IMG/VR virus record: IMGVR_UViG_3300009537_000039
Span: 1 to 44,404 of that record
Direction: 5' to 3' (one strand)
From: a virus
DNA length: 44,404 nt
In this document: positions 2,159 to 41,466 of the stretch, piece by piece
Layout of the letters: every line of letters starts with the position of its first letter
How positions within the stretch are numbered: the stretch's first letter is position 1
The notes under the pieces: generated by a model
What the model saw: only the letters and a program-made list of their open reading frames with translations
Told to the model about the DNA's origin: nothing
Database searches by the model: none
Program-made: the position numbers and the translations under genes

Positions 2159-3061
2159 CTAGATGATGTAGGCGATGACGAATGCGGCGTTTTCCGCCGC
2201 GCTAGCCGCGCTCGTTTGGAACCGGGCCTCGAAGATAGCGTCCTCATCGAGCGGGACCCACTTGTGCCCGATGAGGTTGTTAGCTCCGCTCGTTTCCTGG
2301 TGGTTGACGATCTCCCCCGACGTGTCGCTGGTGGATCCGTTTTGTCTGGCGCGGCACGAATTCATCCCTGATGCTGGGCCAGCAATCGAGATCGCTAGGT
2401 GGAAAGCAACAGCTCCCTTGCGCACACCGTCGTCGCTCACGTCTACGTCGGTAAACGTGATTTGAGTAGTTGCTATCCAGTCTCCGATAGTGTCTCCAGG
2501 CTCGACGATCACCAGCGTCGTGCCCATCCCGACGTTTCCCGCGACCTGTTCGTAGGCGCTGCCGTTGTACTTGAAGCGCAGCCAGTCTCCGGACTGGCAG
2601 GGGATGGAGTGACCGGATCCCGTCAGGCCCCCGTCGATGGTCACGTGAGACGTAGTGATGCGGAGATCGAACCAGTGCCCATTGACTCCGCCATCGAACG
2701 CTGTGATGGTGCCGGCACCCGTCCAGCCCACGTCGTTCCAGGAGAACGATCCCGAGACGTCCGGGGTCGTGTCCCCGTCGGACATGCTCTGCTCCTTGAA
2801 GTCGACGGGAGAGGAGCGGGAGCGAGGAATGTTCTCGTCGTTCGTCTCATCGGAATCGAGGACGACGATCCATGCGGTATTGGCCTGGTTGCGCCGCTTG
2901 ACCTGGTTGTTGGCGGTGTCGTACCAGAGCATTCCGGCGAACGGCGTTCCAGGGGCCGTGGCTCCCGAGGAGATGGTCACGAGCGCTCCGAGGTGGTCAT
3001 TGATGTCTGCTCGGACGGTCGCTCCGTCGCCGTTGGCGACGTTCATGTCGGTCTGCGACAC
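2159..3061 (-). CDS. Putative tail fibre / receptor-binding protein
   Basis: A 300-residue protein. The first 70 residues follow a pattern common at the N-terminus of phage fibre proteins: V-R-A-D-I-N, then SGATAP, LWYDTANNQVKRRN and NTAWIVV. A beta-rich central part follows (residues 90-180), and then a C-terminal domain (about 185-300) ending WVPLDEDAIFEAR, which recurs in the protein at 728-1192. It begins with GTG directly after the stop of the gene at 3062. Its place right behind TipJ and its small, modular size suggest a virion surface protein that contacts the host. Receptor binding is inferred, not shown. Confidence 0.65.
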   Translation of the reverse strand: MSQTDMNVANGDGATVRADINDHLGALVTISSGATAPGTPFAGMLWYDTANNQVKRRNQANTAWIVVLDSDETNDENIPRSRSSPVDFKEQSMSDGDTTPDVSGSFSWNDVGWTGAGTITAFDGGVNGHWFDLRITTSHVTIDGGLTGSGHSIPCQSGDWLRFKYNGSAYEQVAGNVGMGTTLVIVEPGDTIGDWIATTQITFTDVDVSDDGVRKGAVAFHLAISIAGPASGMNSCRARQNGSTSDTSGEIVNHQETSGANNLIGHKWVPLDEDAIFEARFQTSAASAAENAAFVIAYII

Positions 3062-34121: not shown

Positions 34122-37100
34122 ATGTACCACCTAGACTTTGAAACGCGTTCCGAGCTCGACATCAAGGTTGGCGCTTGGGCCTACTCCGTCCACCCGAGCA
34201 CGGAGGTTCTCTGCGTGTCCGTGGCGCTAGGAGACGAACGGCCTCTCGTCGTAACTTGCCTGGATGAATTCGAGGACGTGCACGATGCCTTCCAGCATCT
34301 CACCGACGAGGTCCATGTCCCTGTTGGGGCTCACAACGCCTTTTTCGAACGGTGCATCTGGGAGAACGTCATGGTGGCGCGGCACGGCCAGCCGCCGATT
34401 GACCCGGAGCGCTGGCGGTGCTCCGCGGCGCTCGCGGCGAACTTCGGGCTCCCTCGCAAGCTGGAGATGGTCGCCAAGGCCCTCGGGCTCGCGGAGCGCA
34501 AGGACGAGGAAGGTCACGCGCTCATGCTCCGAATGAGCAAGCCGCGCAAGCCGACGGCCGCGGAGCGTGGCAGGGGTCAGGCGGAGCCGGACCCTTTCTG
34601 CGGAGAATGCCGCGGCCTTGGGGTAGCCCCGAGCATCATAGGGCATCGCTGTTCGTGCACATCTCTTAACGGTCCTCTCTGGTATGGCTCCCGCGAGGAC
34701 CTGGAACGCCTCGCCGCTTACTGCGTGCAGGACGTAGTCGTTGAGCGCGAGATCACTCGGCGCCTCGGGGAGCTCTCCCCGATGGAGCTCGATGTCTGGC
34801 ACGCCGATCAAGCGGTGAACGCCTCGGGCGTGCCCGTCGATCTGGACCTCTGCCGCGGCGCGCTCAAGATCAAAGCCGAGCTCGACGCCCGGGCCAACGA
34901 GGAGCTCTGCGAGATCACTGGCGCCGGGAAGGGCGACAAGACGCTCCCGACGCGGCACACCCAACGCGACCGCATCGTCAAGTGGGTCCGGTCTTGCGGG
35001 TGGGAGCTCCCGAACGCTCAGAAGGAGACCCTCGACGAGGCGCTCGACGGCAAAGGGCTCAAGCGCATTGGTGGAGGGAAGCGCGAGGAGGTCACTGGCT
35101 CGGTGCGGCGCGTCCTGGAGATTCGCCGCGCAGCCTCCAAGGCGAGCACGGCGAAGTATCAGGCGGCGATCGACCGGGCGACACGAGATCGGTGGTCTAT
35201 CGGACCCAACGGGCCACAGGGAGCCATCCCAGACCAGGATCGTGTTCGCGGCTCGCTCATCTACTACGGCGCCCACACCGGCAGGTGGGCGGGCTCGGGG
35301 CTGCAGACTCAGAACATGCCGCGGGACAGCCCCCCGAAAGGCGAGTACGAGTTCGCCTGCAGTCTGGTGTCGGCCGGAGACCTGCAGCGGCTTGAATTCT
35401 TCTACCCGGAGCCCATGGCGATTCTCAAGTCCTGCGTCCGAGGGATCATCCGAGCGCCGGGCGGCAAGGTGTTCCTGGTCGGCGACTACTCTGCCATCGA
35501 AGCGCGGGTAGTCTTCTGGCTGGCCGGGGAACTACGCGGGCTCTCGCTCTACCGGGCCTATGACAAGGCGCCACGAGAAGCGCTGGAGCCCTACTGCTGG
35601 ATGGCGTCCAGGATTTTCGGGCGCGACGGCCTGGAGATCCAGCGGGCCAACCGCGACGGCGACAAGGAGGGCGAGGAGCAACGCTTCGTCGGCAAGTCTT
35701 CGGTCCTCGGCTGCGGCTTCGGGCTAGGGCCGCGACGCTTCCGAGATCAGTACGACGTCGCAGGCAAGCTGGCCAAGCTGGCGGTGAAGGCATACCGCGA
35801 GAGCTTCCCTGCCGTGCCGGACATGTGGACCGAGCTCGACGAGGCGTCCGTCGAGGCGGTGCGAGGCAGCGCTCGGCCGATCCCGACCTGCGGAGGGCGC
35901 ATCTTGTGGGGGATGAGGGACGGCTTCCTCTGCGCGCGTCTCCCCTCGGGCCGGATGCTTCGCTACCCCGAGCCCCGCGTCGGTTTGAACCGCGTGACCA
36001 TCGAGACGGTTGACGGTGAAGAGCGTACCTTCGAGCGCATCGCTGTCAACTACAAGACAGCGGACAAAGGCCAGTGGCGCCGGACGTGGACGTGGGGAGG
36101 GACGCTCTGCATCGAGGAGGGCACGCTGGTAGTAACCGACCACGGTCCCGTGCCGATCGAGAGAGTCGAGCCCTCCATGCTGGTGTGGGATGGTAAGGAG
36201 TGGGTGACCCACTCCGGGTCGATCTTGCAGGGCTACAAGGACACAGTCGAAGCCTACGGCGTCCGTATGACGCCTGACCACAGGGTTCTCACTGTCGAAG
36301 GGTGGAAGCGTGAATCCGAGAGCAAGGGACTTGACCGGGCTCCGTGCCGGCTACCTGACGGCTACTCGTTACGCGGGGAGCAATGGGAGGAGATCGCTCT
36401 GGCTCCTCCGGTGCGACTGCGGAAACACTCTGGTTCGAGAGGCCTCAGAGTTCATGAAGTCCGTGAAGCGCAAGCGTCGATCTTCCTGCGGCTGCATTCT
36501 CTCCAAGACCTTGAGCGAGTACCGCACGACGCACGGCATGACGAAGCACTCGGCCTTCGCGGTCTGGTCGTCTATGAAGCGGCGCTGCCTCGACCCCTCG
36601 CACCCGGCGTACAAGAACTATGGTGGCCGTGGCATCTCGGTGTGCGAGCGCTGGCGCGACTCCTTCGAGAACTTCTGGAGCGACATGGGCGGGACCTACG
36701 AGCGCGGGCTCTGCATCGACAGAGTCGACAACGACGGGGACTACACCCCGGAGAACTGCCGCTGGACCACCTACCAGGAGCAGGCACGCAACCGTCGAGG
36801 AACCGTCTTGATCCCTACGCCGTACGGACCTATGCACATGGCGGATGCCGCGACTCGGAGCGGAATCTCTCGTTCAACGCTCTACTACCGAAGAGACCGG
36901 GGAGTGCCCGCGGATCGGATGTTCGATCCGCCCGACCCGTCTACGACCTGGTAGACTGTGGGCCTCGCCGTCGCTTCGTGGTCTTGGATAAACGAGGCAA
37001 GCCGCTGATCGTCCACAACTGCGAGAACGTGGTGCAAGCCGTCGCCCGGGACCTACTCGCTGACGCGCTGGTCCGTTCGCACAAGCTACTCGCGCCTCAC

Positions 37101-37268
37101 GCTCATCCGATCGCGCACTCTCACGACGAGTTGATCCTGGAGATGCACGAGAGCATGACCGAGTACACCCCGGAGTGGTTCGAACGATTCCTCTGCGTGA
37201 AGCCCGCGTGGGCCGACGGACTGCCCGTGGCGGCAGAGGCATGGAGCGGGCCGAGGTACAGGAAATGA
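34122..37268 (+). CDS. DNA polymerase (family A) precursor with intein
   Basis: A 1048-residue precursor. N-terminal 3'-5' exonuclease: H-L-D-F-E-T-R-S (D5, E7), G-A-H-N-A-F-F-E and Y-C-V-Q-D-V-V-V-E. Polymerase motif A: G-D-Y-S-A-I-E-A-R (D455); motif C: H-S-H-D-E-L-I-L-E (D1002 of the precursor). Residues 663-966 are an intein inserted in T-W-G-G-T-L|C-E-N-V-V-Q-A-V-A-R-D-L-L; splicing gives a 744-residue enzyme. The ATG follows a tRNA-like element by three bases and has no ribosome binding site, yet the exonuclease motif begins at residue 4, so this start is right. Downstream genes overlap (ATGA). Confidence 0.9.
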   Translation: MYHLDFETRSELDIKVGAWAYSVHPSTEVLCVSVALGDERPLVVTCLDEFEDVHDAFQHLTDEVHVPVGAHNAFFERCIWENVMVARHGQPPIDPERWRCSAALAANFGLPRKLEMVAKALGLAERKDEEGHALMLRMSKPRKPTAAERGRGQAEPDPFCGECRGLGVAPSIIGHRCSCTSLNGPLWYGSREDLERLAAYCVQDVVVEREITRRLGELSPMELDVWHADQAVNASGVPVDLDLCRGALKIKAELDARANEELCEITGAGKGDKTLPTRHTQRDRIVKWVRSCGWELPNAQKETLDEALDGKGLKRIGGGKREEVTGSVRRVLEIRRAASKASTAKYQAAIDRATRDRWSIGPNGPQGAIPDQDRVRGSLIYYGAHTGRWAGSGLQTQNMPRDSPPKGEYEFACSLVSAGDLQRLEFFYPEPMAILKSCVRGIIRAPGGKVFLVGDYSAIEARVVFWLAGELRGLSLYRAYDKAPREALEPYCWMASRIFGRDGLEIQRANRDGDKEGEEQRFVGKSSVLGCGFGLGPRRFRDQYDVAGKLAKLAVKAYRESFPAVPDMWTELDEASVEAVRGSARPIPTCGGRILWGMRDGFLCARLPSGRMLRYPEPRVGLNRVTIETVDGEERTFERIAVNYKTADKGQWRRTWTWGGTLCIEEGTLVVTDHGPVPIERVEPSMLVWDGKEWVTHSGSILQGYKDTVEAYGVRMTPDHRVLTVEGWKRESESKGLDRAPCRLPDGYSLRGEQWEEIALAPPVRLRKHSGSRGLRVHEVREAQASIFLRLHSLQDLERVPHDARHDEALGLRGLVVYEAALPRPLAPGVQELWWPWHLGVRALARLLRELLERHGRDLRARALHRQSRQRRGLHPGELPLDHLPGAGTQPSRNRLDPYAVRTYAHGGCRDSERNLSFNALLPKRPGSARGSDVRSARPVYDLVDCGPRRRFVVLDKRGKPLIVHNCENVVQAVARDLLADALVRSHKLLAPHAHPIAHSHDELILEMHESMTEYTPEWFERFLCVKPAWADGLPVAAEAWSGPRYRK
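36108..37019 (+). other. Intein in DNA polymerase, with foreign-frame insertion
   Basis: The 304-residue segment starts with Cys1 (C-I-E-E-G-T-L-V-V-T-D-H-G-P-V-P-I), has the T-P-D-H-R-V-L-T block (splicing block B) and G-W near residue 60, and ends V-Y-D-L-V-D-C-G (block F) and L-I-V-H-N (block G) before Cys+1. The middle, about 215 residues, is Arg/Leu/Pro-rich and has no endonuclease motif in the polymerase frame. It is the shadow of an HNH gene in another frame (36310-36954). A working Hint domain only needs the two ends. Splicing is inferred from motifs. Confidence 0.85.
36310..36954 (+). CDS. HNH homing endonuclease nested out of frame in the intein
   Basis: A 214-residue HNH endonuclease in the +1 frame relative to the polymerase, fully inside the intein. 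Zinc ribbon Cys at 35, 37, 60, 62 (R-C-D-C-G ... S-C-G-C); K-N-Y-G-G-R-G-I-S-V-C-E-R-W; S-F-E-N-F-W-S-D-M-G; I-D-R-V-D-N-D-G and N-C-R-W-T-T (HNH core); and a C-terminal helix-turn-helix-like G-P-M-H-M-A-D-A-A-T-R-S-G-I-S-R-S-T-L-Y-Y-R-R. The start is GTG (36310) without an obvious ribosome binding site. It is full length for phage HNH proteins. Overlap keeps both frames open for 645 bases. Confidence 0.82.
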   Translation: MNPRARDLTGLRAGYLTATRYAGSNGRRSLWLLRCDCGNTLVREASEFMKSVKRKRRSSCGCILSKTLSEYRTTHGMTKHSAFAVWSSMKRRCLDPSHPAYKNYGGRGISVCERWRDSFENFWSDMGGTYERGLCIDRVDNDGDYTPENCRWTTYQEQARNRRGTVLIPTPYGPMHMADAATRSGISRSTLYYRRDRGVPADRMFDPPDPSTTW

Positions 37269-37528
37269 CCAATCGCTCCGAGGACTTCCTGCAGCACCAA
37301 GCGATCGCGCTCGAGGATGAAGACCGCGGCGCCTGCACCTGCTCGCGTTGCGCCCGTTTTGCTGGCGGTGCCGAGCGCGTGCACGAGGCCCTCGGGGCAG
37401 CGATCAAGGACCTGCAGGTGAAGGAGTGGAGGGAACGTGAACGTCGACAAGGGGCCGAGGGGAACGTCCGCCGGTTACGCCGCGAAGTGCTCCGGCTTCG
37501 AGACAGAATCGAGGAGCTGAAAAAATGA
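37265..37528 (+). CDS. Small coiled-coil protein with Cys motif
   Basis: An 87-residue protein beginning at the ATG that overlaps the polymerase stop (ATGA); the longer reading from 37175 lies inside the polymerase gene. It has a C-T-C-S-R-C segment (three Cys) near residue 25-31 and a strongly charged coiled-coil C-terminus (R-R-L-R-R-E-V-L-R-L-R-D-R-I-E-E-L-K-K). A zinc-binding helical accessory protein is possible. The next gene starts at its stop (ATGA). Confidence 0.6.
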   Translation: MTNRSEDFLQHQAIALEDEDRGACTCSRCARFAGGAERVHEALGAAIKDLQVKEWRERERRQGAEGNVRRLRREVLRLRDRIEELKK

Positions 37529-38718
37529 GTAGGTCGCTTAAAGTCGTGCGCGGGGACTGCCTTCGTTTCCTTCCGTTGTTGGAAGATGACACCTTCGATT
37601 CTTGTGTGACCGACCCGCCGTACCACTTGACCTCCATCTCCAAGCGCTTCGGCCGCAAGGATGCGACCCACGGAGGCGGCAACGATGCGCTCGGGAGAAT
37701 GGCCGGTGGGTTCATGGGGAAGACTTGGGATGGCGGCGACATCGCGCACGACCCTGCAACCTGGGCGGAGGTGCTGCGTGTCGTCAAGCCTGGCGCGTGG
37801 CTCCTCGCCTTCGGCGGGACGCGCACCGCGCACCGGCTCGCCTGCGCCATCGAGGACGCGGGGTGGGAGGTGCGGGACCGGATTGCTTGGCTCTACGCTC
37901 AGGGGTTCCCCGCCGGGTCGCTCAACGTCTCGAAGGCAATCAACAAGGAACTAGGAGCGGAGCCAGCCGCCGCCTGGGATGGTTGGGGTACGCGGCTCTC
38001 CCCCGCTCACGAGCCGATTGTCGTCGCGCGTAAGCCGCTGGCGGAGCGCTCGATCGTCCGACAGGTTCTCTCCACAGGGACAGGCGCGTTGAACGTTGAC
38101 GGGTGCCGCGTAGGTACAGGGAAAGGCGGTGAGCGTACCGGAGAAGCGAGTGCTATGCGTACTTATCGCAAGGAGTCAGGTGCTTTTGGTTTACCTCCTG
38201 GGCCAAGAGGAGGGAACGCTGCCGGAAGATGGCCTCCGAATGTAGTGCTCTCCCACGGTGTCACTGAGGATGGACATGACGCCTGCGCGGAGGGATGCCT
38301 TCCTGGGTGCCCCGTCCTCGAGCTTGACGAGCGCGCCAAGTTCTTTCCTGTCTTCCGCTTCCAGGCGAAACCGACGGTGAAGGAGAAGGAGGCCGGGCTT
38401 AACCACCTGCCGCTCGGCACGTTGCACCGCGTCAACGCGGGAGGCCTGGAGAATGAGCCGCGCTTCGCGCCGACGCCGCGGCGCAACCGGCACAACACTG
38501 TGAAACCTGTTGGCCTCATGCGCTGGCTCGTCCGTCTTGTCACTCCACGAGGAGGGGAAGTGTTGGACCCCTTCGCGGGGTCTGGCACTACGGGCGCCGC
38601 CTGCGCGCACGAAGGCTCCGAGTTCCTCGGCGTCGAGCTGGACGACGACGGAGATAACATGGTCGAGGTGGCCCGGGCACGCATCATGCACGCCAGGCGA
38701 GAGGCGCTCTGCTCATGA
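37525..38718 (+). CDS. DNA methyltransferase (N6-adenine or N4-cytosine, DPPY type)
   Basis: A 397-residue methyltransferase. Catalytic motif IV D-P-P-Y is near the N-terminus (D30), after V-V-R-G-D-C-L-R-F-L, and SAM-binding D-P-F-A-G-S-G-T-T-G near residues 352-361, with N-T-V-K-P-V-G-L-M-R-W before it; this order defines the beta class. A long insert lies between, with S-L-N-V-S-K-A-I and R-W-P-P-N-V-V-L-S-H. Phage enzymes of this type methylate DNA to escape restriction. It ends with A-L-C-S at a repeated junction element. Confidence 0.88.
   Translation: MSRSLKVVRGDCLRFLPLLEDDTFDSCVTDPPYHLTSISKRFGRKDATHGGGNDALGRMAGGFMGKTWDGGDIAHDPATWAEVLRVVKPGAWLLAFGGTRTAHRLACAIEDAGWEVRDRIAWLYAQGFPAGSLNVSKAINKELGAEPAAAWDGWGTRLSPAHEPIVVARKPLAERSIVRQVLSTGTGALNVDGCRVGTGKGGERTGEASAMRTYRKESGAFGLPPGPRGGNAAGRWPPNVVLSHGVTEDGHDACAEGCLPGCPVLELDERAKFFPVFRFQAKPTVKEKEAGLNHLPLGTLHRVNAGGLENEPRFAPTPRRNRHNTVKPVGLMRWLVRLVTPRGGEVLDPFAGSGTTGAACAHEGSEFLGVELDDDGDNMVEVARARIMHARREALCS
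38701..38718 (+). repeat. Junction repeat copy 1 (methyltransferase / 38715 gene)
   Basis: Eighteen bases, GAGGCGCTCTGCTCATGA, which end one gene with A-L-C-S-stop and start the next at an overlapping ATG. GAGG may be the ribosome binding site. Two nearly identical copies end the next two genes. Confidence 0.75.
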
Positions 38719-38945
38719 GCAAGTATAAGCGCCCTACTGTTCACTCCGACTACGCTGCCCCCCTCGGCCGACTCCGACACGCCGCCCGTTTGATATATCG
38801 CGGGGCCGATTGTGAAGCGTTGAGCCCAGAAATGCGCGTCGATATTGAAGCGCTTGGAGATCGCCTTCGACACTTGATCGAAAAGATTGAGGAGAGAAAT
38901 GAGGAAGCGATCGACGAGCAGGAGATTAAGGCGCTCTGCTCGTGA
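38715..38945 (+). CDS. Small hypothetical protein
   Basis: A 76-residue charged, helical protein (M-S-K-Y-K-R-P-T-V-H, later D-I-E-A-L-G-D-R-L-R-H-L-I-E-K-I-E-E-R). It starts with ATG overlapping the upstream stop and ends K-A-L-C-S at a GTGA overlap. It lies between the two DNA methyltransferase genes, so it could be an accessory of either. I do not recognise the family. Confidence 0.6.
   Translation: MSKYKRPTVHSDYAAPLGRLRHAARLIYRGADCEALSPEMRVDIEALGDRLRHLIEKIEERNEEAIDEQEIKALCS
38928..38945 (+). repeat. Junction repeat copy 2
   Basis: AAGGCGCTCTGCTCGTGA: same element as at 38701-38718 with A for G at the first base and GTG in place of ATG. It is the end of the 38715 gene and the start of the cytosine methyltransferase gene. 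Confidence 0.75.
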
Positions 38946-39997
38946 CCTTCGCCTACTACAACGAGATCGACCCATTCCCGGTCGAGTGGCTGCGAAACCT
39001 GGTAGCGGCCAGGCACGTCGCCCCCGGACGCGTGGATGGCCGGTCGGTTGTCGACGTGCAACCGGAGGACGTGGGCGATGGACAATCTCACTTCTTCGCT
39101 GGCATCGGCGTTTGGTCCGCCGCGCTGCGCGAGGCAGGGTGGCCCGATGACCTGCCGGTGTGGACCGGCTCATGCCCATGCCAGCCATTCTCTACCGCAG
39201 GTAAAGGAGAAGGATTCGATGACCCACGGCATCTCTGGCCTGAATGGCACCGGCTCGTCCGCGAGTGCCGACCTACAGTCATTCTTGGAGAGCAGGTTGC
39301 AAGCAAGGGTGGAAGGACGTGGCTCGACCTTGTATCGGCTGACCTGGAAGCGTTGGGCTACGCCTTCGGGGCGACCGATCTCCCGGCTTGCGGCATCGGT
39401 GCCCCGCAAATCCGGCAGCGCCTCTGGTGGGTGGCCGTCACCCGTGACGAACGACGGCAAGAATTCGCAATACGCTTACGGAAACGGTCGAAAAGACCGT
39501 ATCTGCCTGAAGCTACCGGGAGCGGCGGCGGCGGCGGGATGGCCTACAGCAGCAGCACGGGATCACAGGTCTCCCAAGTGCGGCGAGAACACCTTTGCGA
39601 AGGGCAAGGGGAGGCCCCTGAACGAGACATCGGCACTGGCCGGATGGGGTGCCCCGACGGCGACGGAGACCGGAGGCACGCCGGAGCGTTTCGTAGAGAG
39701 GAAGCGCCTAGCGGCATCGAAGGGATTGAGGCTTGGCGCCTTGCTGACGGCCTTGAACCTCCAGGCGCTACTCGCGGCGCATGGCTTGGATCCGAGTGGC
39801 TACTCTGTCGTCCCGCCGTGCCCGGTCAGCCTCCCAAGCTCCGTCCAGTTGAGCGCGGCACATTCCCGCTGGCTCATGGGGATCCCTCCCGAGTGGGACG
39901 CGTTCGCGCCTACGGAAACGCCATCGTCCTCCCGCTCGCGACTGAATTCATTGCTACGGTGATCGACTACCTGGTGACCGAGGCGCTCTGCTCGTGA
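38942..39997 (+). CDS. dcm: DNA (cytosine-5) methyltransferase
   Basis: A 351-residue C5-cytosine methyltransferase. Motif I is H-F-F-A-G-I-G-V-W-S-A-A-L (residues 50-62), the catalytic motif IV G-S-C-P-C-Q-P-F-S (C80), motif VI I-L-G-E-Q-V (114-119), motif VIII Q-I-R-Q-R-L-W-W-V (156-164), and near the C-terminus G-N-A-I-V (motif X area). The N-terminus Y-Y-N-E-I-D-P-F is typical of phage forms. The middle (170-290) is low in conserved motifs and coincides with a second long frame (39078-39962). Starts at GTG in a junction repeat. Confidence 0.9.
   Translation: MTFAYYNEIDPFPVEWLRNLVAARHVAPGRVDGRSVVDVQPEDVGDGQSHFFAGIGVWSAALREAGWPDDLPVWTGSCPCQPFSTAGKGEGFDDPRHLWPEWHRLVRECRPTVILGEQVASKGGRTWLDLVSADLEALGYAFGATDLPACGIGAPQIRQRLWWVAVTRDERRQEFAIRLRKRSKRPYLPEATGSGGGGGMAYSSSTGSQVSQVRREHLCEGQGEAPERDIGTGRMGCPDGDGDRRHAGAFRREEAPSGIEGIEAWRLADGLEPPGATRGAWLGSEWLLCRPAVPGQPPKLRPVERGTFPLAHGDPSRVGRVRAYGNAIVLPLATEFIATVIDYLVTEALCS
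39078..39962 (+). CDS. Overprinted ORF within the cytosine methyltransferase gene
   Basis: A 294-residue frame, beginning M-D-N-L-T-S-S at an ATG preceded by GGAGG, fully inside the methyltransferase gene in another frame. Its second half has structured sequence: G-S-T-L-Y-R-L-T-W-K-R-W-A-T-P-S-G-R, repeated G-W-P-[ST]-[PA] blocks and S-A-A-H-S-R-W-L-M-G-I-P-P-E-W-D. I recall phage and prophage proteins with these same patterns (STLY.LTWK, GWPTP repeats, SRWLMG.PPEWD), so this may be a real overlapping gene. From memory only; function unknown. Confidence 0.5.
   Translation: MDNLTSSLASAFGPPRCARQGGPMTCRCGPAHAHASHSLPQVKEKDSMTHGISGLNGTGSSASADLQSFLESRLQARVEGRGSTLYRLTWKRWATPSGRPISRLAASVPRKSGSASGGWPSPVTNDGKNSQYAYGNGRKDRICLKLPGAAAAAGWPTAAARDHRSPKCGENTFAKGKGRPLNETSALAGWGAPTATETGGTPERFVERKRLAASKGLRLGALLTALNLQALLAAHGLDPSGYSVVPPCPVSLPSSVQLSAAHSRWLMGIPPEWDAFAPTETPSSSRSRLNSLLR
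39980..39997 (+). repeat. Junction repeat copy 3
   Basis: GAGGCGCTCTGCTCGTGA, the end of the cytosine methyltransferase gene (T-E-A-L-C-S) and the GTG start of the helicase gene. It differs from copy 1 only at the A/G of the start codon. Confidence 0.75.
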
Positions 39998-41466
39998 GGC
40001 TCCCCGACTCGCGCACCGCGTTCTACGACCACCAGGCTGCCGAGCTCGAAGAGCACGGGATGGAGGAGGCCCGGGGGCTCCTCTGGACGATGCGAGTCGG
40101 CAAGAGCAAGACGGCGATCGACCGGAGCTCGCTTCTCTGGCAATGGGGGAAGATCCGCGGCGCGCTGGTCTTCGCCCCGACCGGCGTACACCGCCAGTGG
40201 GCGGAGGAGCAGGTCCCGGCTCACTGTGGCGTCCCCAACTTCGCGCACGCGTGGGACACCTCCGGCAGAGAAGAGCCCAGCCACCGCGCCGCGATGGTGA
40301 TGCTGGAGGCTCAAGGCGGCGGACGCTCACGGATGTTCCAGGCTCGTTCCCTGCCTTTCCTCTGCGTGAACACCGAGGCGATGCATTGGCCCGCGGTCAA
40401 GAAAGCGGTGCGCGATTACGTGAAGGCGCTGCATGGTCAGGTCCATGTGATTGCCGACGAAAGCCACATGTTCCGGACTCCTGGCGCCGTGCGCACCGCG
40501 TTCCTCCGGACGGTTGCCAAGCGTTGCGCGTACCGGACCATCCTGACAGGGACCCCGGTGGGCAACTCCGTCCGAGGCCTGTACTCGCAATTCGAGGTCT
40601 TGCGGCGCGGGGCGCTCGGGCACTTCACCTTCGAGGACTACAAGGATGAATTCCTCATCCGTCGCCCTTTCGGCCCGCCCGGGCGCCGCAAGCTGGTCGA
40701 GGTGGGGCAACAGAACCTCGGGAAGCTCTCCGACCTCTGCCGGCAGTTTGCCTCGGTGATCCGTCGAGAGGACTGCCCGGACCTGCCCCCTCTCATCCGA
40801 GCCCGTCGCCTCTTCGAGCCCCACCCTTCCGCGCTACGAGAGCTCCGGAGGCTCGAGGGCAACGTCGACATTGAGGTGGCGCCCGGAGCGCCCGGTGAGC
40901 TCCCCAGTGGGCCGCTTGCGCTCCTGGCAGCCAAGTGCAGAGCAGCGAGCGGTTGGGGGGCGGACTGGGAGCCTCTGTACCCTCCCGAGGAGTGCCCGCG
41001 CCTCGCGGCGCTGCGCGACACGTTGCTAGAGGCGGACGGGCGAGCGGTAGTCTGGTGCCGCTACCGGCAGGACGTTCAGCGCGTGGTCGAGGACCTCTGT
41101 GCCGCTGAGGACCGCTACGGGATCGGGCAATGGGCCGCCTACGGCCACCATGGCGGGTACGACACGTATGTTCGGGAAGAGCAGCGCGGCAGGTGGGCAG
41201 GCACCCCGCGAGCCGTCCTCGTCGCCACCCCCGAGACCGCGGGCGTCGGTATCGACCTCTCGGCGGCGAGCGACATCGTCTGGTACTCGCACACCTGGGA
41301 TGCCGTCACGCGGGCGCAGGCCGACGAGCGGTGTACCGCCCTCGGTGGCGCCGCGGTCGGCGTTACGGACCTCTGTGGCGCCGGCACCGAGGACGTTCGC
41401 ATCCTCGACGCTCACGACCGGAAGGCGGACGTGGCGGAGGAAGTGAAAGCCGGCATGCTGGCGTGA
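39994..41466 (+). CDS. SNF2-family DEAD/DEAH-like helicase
   Basis: A 490-residue superfamily 2 helicase with SNF2-like organisation. Motif I: L-L-W-T-M-R-V-G-K-S-K-T-A-I (residues 30-42), Ia: V-F-A-P-T-G-V-H-R-Q-W, II: I-A-D-E-S-H (DESH 155-158), III: L-T-G-T-P-V-G-N, then the second lobe with V-V-W-C-R-Y-R, V-L-V-A-T-P-E-T-A-G-V-G-I-D-L and W-D-A-V-T-R-A-Q-A-D-E-R (motif VI). Length is close to the minimal SNF2 form of phages. Likely remodels DNA-protein complexes in replication or recombination. Starts at GTG in a junction repeat. Confidence 0.9.
   Translation: MRLPDSRTAFYDHQAAELEEHGMEEARGLLWTMRVGKSKTAIDRSSLLWQWGKIRGALVFAPTGVHRQWAEEQVPAHCGVPNFAHAWDTSGREEPSHRAAMVMLEAQGGGRSRMFQARSLPFLCVNTEAMHWPAVKKAVRDYVKALHGQVHVIADESHMFRTPGAVRTAFLRTVAKRCAYRTILTGTPVGNSVRGLYSQFEVLRRGALGHFTFEDYKDEFLIRRPFGPPGRRKLVEVGQQNLGKLSDLCRQFASVIRREDCPDLPPLIRARRLFEPHPSALRELRRLEGNVDIEVAPGAPGELPSGPLALLAAKCRAASGWGADWEPLYPPEECPRLAALRDTLLEADGRAVVWCRYRQDVQRVVEDLCAAEDRYGIGQWAAYGHHGGYDTYVREEQRGRWAGTPRAVLVATPETAGVGIDLSAASDIVWYSHTWDAVTRAQADERCTALGGAAVGVTDLCGAGTEDVRILDAHDRKADVAEEVKAGMLA

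Follow-up and report, generated by a model that had tools for sequence, protein, structure and literature searches.

Textbook inteins achieve mobility through an endonuclease fused in frame. Inteins with an in-frame HNH endonuclease were reportedly first described by Dalgaard and colleagues in 1997 (cited in PMC5050341). Split inteins with a free-standing endonuclease gene between their halves are said to have been described as 'fractured genes' by Dassa and colleagues in 2009. Here, we analyzed a stretch of viral DNA of 44,404 bases (IMG/VR record IMGVR_UViG_3300009537_000039; hereafter the window), in which a phage DNA polymerase gene contains an intein and the intein DNA contains an HNH gene in the +1 reading frame. 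The nearest published precedent, an HNH insertion that is both stop-free and out of frame, is the ShiLan domain with the Pacc40 insertion in a mycobacteriophage methylase (Arsenault, Gosselin, Gogarten 2025, PMC11855218). The disjunct distribution of ShiLan was interpreted as homing (PMC11855218). For the window, we consider it highly probable that the insert is a mobile phage intein harbouring, in an alternative reading frame, a complete nested gene for an HNH homing endonuclease, that the nuclease is translated separately, and that both are moved together by homing. Instead of in-frame fusion, a large natural family would thus use dual coding, with a working nuclease in one frame and a merely stop-free sequence in the other.

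The polymerase intein and its nested HNH gene

The polymerase gene is a family A open reading frame (ORF) at 34122-37268 of the plus strand (phrog_17 DNA polymerase, 2.7e-87; Pfam DNA_pol_A, 8.4e-9), which encodes 1048 amino acids with no stop anywhere inside. Family alignment, PDB profile matches and Foldseek place the intein at 36108-37019, with 304 residues running from Cys1 to His303-Asn304 before the Cys of CENVVQAVARD. The +1 Cys codon of the host lies at 37020-37022, and the insertion adjoins the ENVVQAVARD stretch. The C-extein (37020-37268) includes the polymerase HDE motif, as seen in the sequence and alignment. Without the intein, the computed polymerase has 744 residues, the same figure as in the first-pass annotation made from the sequence of the window.

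In the AlphaFold model of the intein, residues 1-90 and 271-304 reach a predicted local distance difference test (pLDDT) score of 84-98. The first segment is the N-terminal splicing region (36108-36377), with the TPDH block B at residues 55-58. The second is the C-terminal splicing region YDLVDCGP ... IVHN (36918-37019; pLDDT 84-97), which is kept in all members of the family. The middle of about 180 residues (36378-36917) is stop-free in the polymerase frame, has no predicted domain and shows no amino-acid constraint above that of a third-frame control. Nearly all of its residues score below 57, with one weak helix at residues 172-194. The intact intein ends and the domain-less middle proposed by the first-pass annotation are thus both borne out. 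The 38 best PDB fold matches of the model are all splicing-domain structures (37 inteins and one Vint domain; Foldseek), and the family profile matches the Mtu RecA splicing domain (E 1.6e-6) and other solved inteins in the PDB profile search. The HINT splicing residues C1, T55, H58, H303-N304 and C+1 are present in the window. Among 57 family members, C1, T55, H58 and N304 are invariant, and H303 is kept in at least 90%. By sequence criteria and its modelled HINT fold, the insert is an intein and would be expected to splice. A group I or group II intron was also considered for 35800-37300 and rejected, with no intron family at gathering score and one chance match far below the cut-off in the Rfam search.

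The nested HNH gene occupies 36310-36954 of the plus strand in the +1 frame, from a GTG start to a TAG stop. It was delimited by ORF, Pfam, PHROG, alignment and structure model, and encodes 214 amino acids with a zinc ribbon, an HNH core and a C-terminal helix-turn-helix (HTH). The start lies inside the DNA of the intein motif EGWKR and the TAG stop inside the DNA of the YDLVD block. The frame matches the PHROG HNH families phrog_374 (8.6e-60) and phrog_3377 (3e-52), Pfam HTH_8 matches near the C-terminus (3e-4), and the AlphaFold model has a mean pLDDT of 90.8. The sole PDB sequence match is I-HmuI (E 0.052). Residues conserved across relatives that are 45-54% identical to the window HNH are kept. 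The start, the Shine-Dalgarno-like site and these conserved residues indicate a complete gene with the zinc ribbon, core and HTH that had been claimed for it. One addition concerns the HNH motif, whose canonical first His is replaced by Arg (LDR.DN) in the window and across nearly all family members. A free-standing relative (L004) likewise has LDR, and the substitution is a trait of the whole subfamily.

Reading frames across the family and probable translation of the nuclease

The arrangement is not confined to the window but is shared by more than 100 related phage and prophage inteins. With the HNH frame as query, a protein search against phage records matched polymerase genes in Caulobacter phages, the APSE phages and Shewanella phage SFCi1. 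Every such phage polymerase checked has an intact polymerase/intein frame and the HNH in the +1 frame. The whole polymerase gene as a nucleotide query gave no match among phages, and the whole window protein gave no confirmed relative in the viral scan. A first survey of two viral-contig scans recovered 99 loci, some of them duplicates, in which both splicing blocks are present. All 99 have a +1-frame HNH, and 98/99 have a stop-free intein frame. A third scan favoured no HNH frame because the splicing blocks alone were the query, and it brought in mini-inteins lacking an HNH as well as inteins of another class, whose HNH is in the +2 frame. When phage records were searched with the N-terminal block, the +2 class grew to include Salmonella Jerseyviruses, Vibrio phage 97.13 and Pseudomonas phage MR14. 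After deduplication, 132 distinct inteins comprise 99 of the +1 class, 11 of the +2 class, 21 mini-inteins and one other, with some mini-intein and some +1 entries being deletion remnants. The single other intein (L190:3501-4469) has a divergent HNH-like ORF in the +2 frame outside the reach of the family model, possibly a third nuclease type. Bacterial contigs give the same patterns, including isolates of Paenibacillus alkaliterrae, Erwinia sp. and Aggregatibacter kilianii.

In-frame homologues, which would speak against the nested reading of the first-pass annotation, number 0 of the 132 distinct inteins, and none appeared in the viral, phage-record or bacterial sets searched. Five rows with an HNH seemingly in frame were rejected as the N-block of one intein mispaired with the C-block of another. 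In four of these loci (L018, L131, L135 and L154; L155 duplicates L018), the upstream N-block belongs to a split intein. The HNH is probably seen only out of frame because its own stop codon, if in frame, would truncate the polymerase. Out-of-frame insertion of an HNH gene would be tolerated as long as the host frame stays open. In the tree of HNH sequences, the +2-class nucleases form one clade (support of 97 in the Shimodaira-Hasegawa-like approximate likelihood ratio test), and well-supported branches require at least four switches between +1 and free-standing labels. The intein tree leaves the number of HNH gains and losses unfixed because it has only 103 columns. At least two HNH groups occupy two frames, and the count of gains beyond that is uncertain. 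On these sequences, the out-of-frame HNH is the usual form of a widespread intein clade, reached in two different frames. The proposal that a stand-alone HNH gene landed in a mini-intein while the host frame stayed open is well supported, as mini-inteins of the family lacking an HNH exist and the nested nucleases are kin to free-standing phage HNHs.

The intein type is also found at several polymerase sites, in SNF2-like helicases and in apparent terminases, with the non-polymerase hosts judged by eye. Five genes or loci (L100, L184, L161, L091 and L098) contain at least two related inteins, and several pair one +1-frame with one +2-frame HNH. The window itself encodes an ORF resembling an SNF2-type helicase at 39994-41466 without an intein, a gene type that bears a related intein in some relatives.

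Dual coding was evaluated by shuffling synonymous codons while keeping the HNH protein and its codon use. The intein frame is open in 77/77 distinct members, with 6.6 stops expected per member and none seen. The third frame is open in 0/77 and holds 11.6 stops. In the window, 5.5 stops are expected, and only 0.1% of synonymous shuffles leave the intein frame open. Among free-standing HNH relatives, either alternative frame is open in 0/68 (0/13 at GC above 0.55). The shuffle test and the free-standing comparison led us to reject chance openness of the intein frame. Members of the +2 class differ in this test, with strong results for several (SE-W109, 0.0005; L223, <0.0005) and weak ones for others (L224, 0.34; L246, 0.14). 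The intein of the +1 class occupies the alternative HNH frame with fewer expected stops (6.6 versus 11.1), and in the +2 class 0.9-5.1 stops are expected in the intein frame versus 7-21 observed in the other.

Selection on each frame was compared across 1623 distant pairs, with a mean HNH identity of 46% and four-fold sites near random. The HNH frame keeps its protein. Intein-frame residues exceed shuffled-codon likeness only at the last few HNH codons and at codons 1-30, in line with intein-frame conservation extending to about HNH codon 30, and both ends fall within or next to the splicing blocks. In the stretch between these ends, the excess is close to that of the unused third frame, and there is therefore little sign of selection on the intein middle beyond stop avoidance.

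The nested gene likely has its own translation signals. A Shine-Dalgarno-like AAGGG at 36298-36302 of the plus strand, encoded by intein Glu64-Gly65, has an anti-Shine-Dalgarno duplex of -7.0 kcal/mol. In the +1 class, an internal start codon lies within 20 codons of the HNH domain in 61/61 lineages (48 ATG, 12 GTG and 1 TTG), mostly at one of two fixed places. Upstream pairing has a family median of -7.0 kcal/mol versus -3.0 at local control codons, with a p of about 1e-25 that serves as a guide only, the lineages being related to each other. The site is made of conserved intein codons, GAAGGGTGG (Glu-Gly-Trp) in the window and CACGAGGT (His-Glu-Val of block B) in other members. The +2 class has a conserved ATG with a Shine-Dalgarno site inside the WDGxEW motif in 9/9 members inspected there (of 10).

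The first-pass annotation had left two routes for making the nuclease, its own GTG or frameshifting. Programmed ribosomal frameshifting from the intein frame would yield a polymerase-intein-HNH fusion. Upstream of the GTG, the HNH frame continues without a stop as far as 36271, and a shift within 36271-36310 could feed it. Separate initiation at GTG 36310 is favoured because a matching start codon is present in 61/61 lineages, nearly always with a Shine-Dalgarno-like site. In addition, one intein family holds HNHs in both the +1 and +2 frames, each group with its own conserved start, which argues against frameshifting since a single shift mechanism would not serve both. We consider frameshifting improbable.

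Separate translation from GTG 36310 suggests the following course. The polymerase frame would be translated straight through the intein, and the two splicing blocks would fold together while the linker between them, about 180 residues that are free of stops and lack a domain, loops out. Excision of the intein would then leave the 744-residue polymerase. The HNH would be made by internal initiation through the AAGGG site, which also encodes conserved intein residues, and its translation would end inside the C-terminal splicing block. The nuclease would cut polymerase genes lacking the intein, and intein and HNH would be copied in together.

Probable mobility and rival explanations

Empty and occupied sites coexist in Jerseyviruses. 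For the joined polymerase flanks, these phages and their kin give 466 records with a match in one place over at least 80% and many others with a match as two halves only. Salmonella phage SETP13 aligns without a gap across the intein point of SE-W109, with 93% identity over 600 nucleotides (nt). Upstream of the junction, identity is close to 100% at distances above 120 nt and 85-87% at shorter distances, and on the downstream side it is about 83-97%. The lowered identity beside the junction could represent a co-conversion tract, and other recombination could leave the same trace.

Nested nucleases also decay. The HNH frame is broken in two APSE-like loci (L100 and L137), one of which (L137) also has one stop in the intein frame. 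Deletion derivatives have lost the HNH core and kept the intein frame (Javan422 versus Javan255; the L184 remnant versus L148). Broken or deleted HNHs in L100, L137, L184 and L245 could indicate that the HNH frame in the window is a decaying passenger as well, once active and no longer expressed, so that only the intein frame matters. The window HNH is however complete with its start, Shine-Dalgarno site and conserved residues, and most members are intact, which makes a passenger quite unlikely. An insert that stays unspliced in the host protein as a tolerated loop would resemble ShiLan, a stop-free out-of-frame HNH insertion without splicing domains (PMC11855218). Against such a loop, Cys1, TxxH, His-Asn and Cys+1 are kept in nearly all members, the blocks fold as known splicing domains, and the insertion adjoins a conserved stretch of an apparently essential polymerase, so this explanation is very improbable. 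Sequencing or assembly errors with paired indels, which the first-pass annotation had set as a test at the HNH borders, could, in a lone contig, disguise an in-frame HNH as an out-of-frame one, but can be dismissed since the arrangement recurs in independent isolates (Caulobacter GB2A, APSE-1, Shewanella SFCi1, Salmonella Jerseyviruses) as well as in many metagenome contigs, and since the codon-shuffle statistics demand real dual coding.

Several points weigh against a mobile intein with a separately translated nuclease. Splicing, HNH expression and separate translation, cleavage and homing are steps that we infer. Catalysis by the HNH is not to be assumed because the first His of the motif is an Arg in the subfamily, and the HNH model has no significant PDB match in Foldseek. 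Two of the 61 lineages (L011 and L126) have no good Shine-Dalgarno site at the start codon found. Across the splicing blocks, the relatives analysed reach no more than 62% identity to the window, and this phage therefore has no known near-identical empty site. At the insertion point of the window, an empty site is found only at about 72% identity, in Bordetella BPP-1 as aligned to the Caulobacter site.

Taken together, the evidence tips slightly towards alternate-frame nesting as a general and recurrent architecture of phage inteins. One mini-intein family might have captured independent HNH genes in two frames, with conserved intein motif DNA (EGW, DHEVLT, WDGxEW) also serving as the nuclease's ribosome binding site. 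Nesting might mark a stage between mini-inteins and split inteins whose endonuclease gene is free-standing, and the composite element might have moved among polymerase sites, SNF2-like helicases and apparent terminases. Dual coding would account for the entry of a free-standing homing endonuclease gene, complete with start and stop, into a protein-coding host that survives the insertion. Long alternate-frame overlaps also become testable, with more than 100 natural examples and with mini-inteins, deletion derivatives, free-standing HNHs and empty sites as controls.

Just downstream of the polymerase, the window encodes an N6/N4 DNA methylase (37525-38718; Pfam 5.5e-26) and a C5 cytosine methylase (38942-39997; Pfam 5.4e-17). 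The 12-mer GGCGCTCTGCTC occurs exactly three times in the window (38703-38714, 38930-38941 and 39982-39993), each directly 5' of an ATGA or GTGA stop-start overlap of consecutive genes. Three neighbouring ORFs therefore end in -ALCS, and the repeats are perhaps a duplicated translational-coupling junction.

Comparison with known systems

The first-pass annotation knew of no described case, which is only partly correct. In the Hamiltonella phage APSE-1 (NC_000935), the P45 DNA polymerase and P46 HNH have been in databases for years as overlapping genes. They represent the same arrangement as the window, with the same intein site and a +1-frame HNH that is 48% identical to the window HNH, and the record shows it only as an overlap. 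The HNH frame with its conserved GTG start begins at 3001 (L002 3001-3651). P46 is annotated from 3229, which is 228 nt inside the frame and leaves out the N-terminal third. In Salmonella phage Ent2 (L281:1801-2697), the polymerase intein is annotated with splicing domains only and the +2-frame HNH is unannotated. Most annotated records encountered list the polymerase only. The endonuclease content of phage inteins is thus undercounted because annotation pipelines miss nested nucleases.

In the openly accessible literature, searches for overlapping, alternative-frame or nested endonucleases in inteins gave only the ShiLan paper and the Applejack announcement, which concerns the same methylase element. 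ShiLan is published, though without an intein. Unlike the window, it has no splicing domain, resides in a methylase, uses what its authors call the third frame and lacks a detectable ribosome binding site. The ShiLan insert is thought to be retained in the host protein, whereas the window insert carries a splicing domain. On overlapping frames, the authors of the ShiLan paper refer to a preprint dealing with non-canonical inteins of actinobacteriophages (Gosselin et al. 2025, 10.1101/2025.01.02.630785). As cited there, the preprint may already describe part of the arrangement.

Group I introns with HNH genes of the I-HmuI type share with the window the kinship of the HNH and the placement of a nuclease gene inside a splicing element. 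In the window, however, splicing would occur at the protein level. Inteins with an in-frame HNH likewise combine a splicing domain and an HNH family nuclease in one insertion. Their nuclease is a domain of the intein protein, whereas that of the window is a separate gene in another frame. The window thus departs from the canonical large intein, in which the endonuclease is an in-frame domain, by having its HNH in the +1 frame.

The fractured-gene split inteins also have an endonuclease gene with its own start and stop between the splicing blocks. The mispaired loci noted above show this form in the same kind of polymerase (L018:1-1950, L131:1600-3600, L135:1100-3000 and L154:1-1800). They represent a different but related polymerase intein at a site between GRWSG and C, where the N-half ends in a stop, the HNH gene is in another frame and the C-half opens a new ORF. 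An Aggregatibacter kilianii prophage (L274) resembles these loci. In fractured genes, the intein frame is broken and splicing occurs in trans, whereas in the window the frame is open over 36108-37019 and splicing would be in cis. The nested arrangement offers a plausible origin of split inteins.
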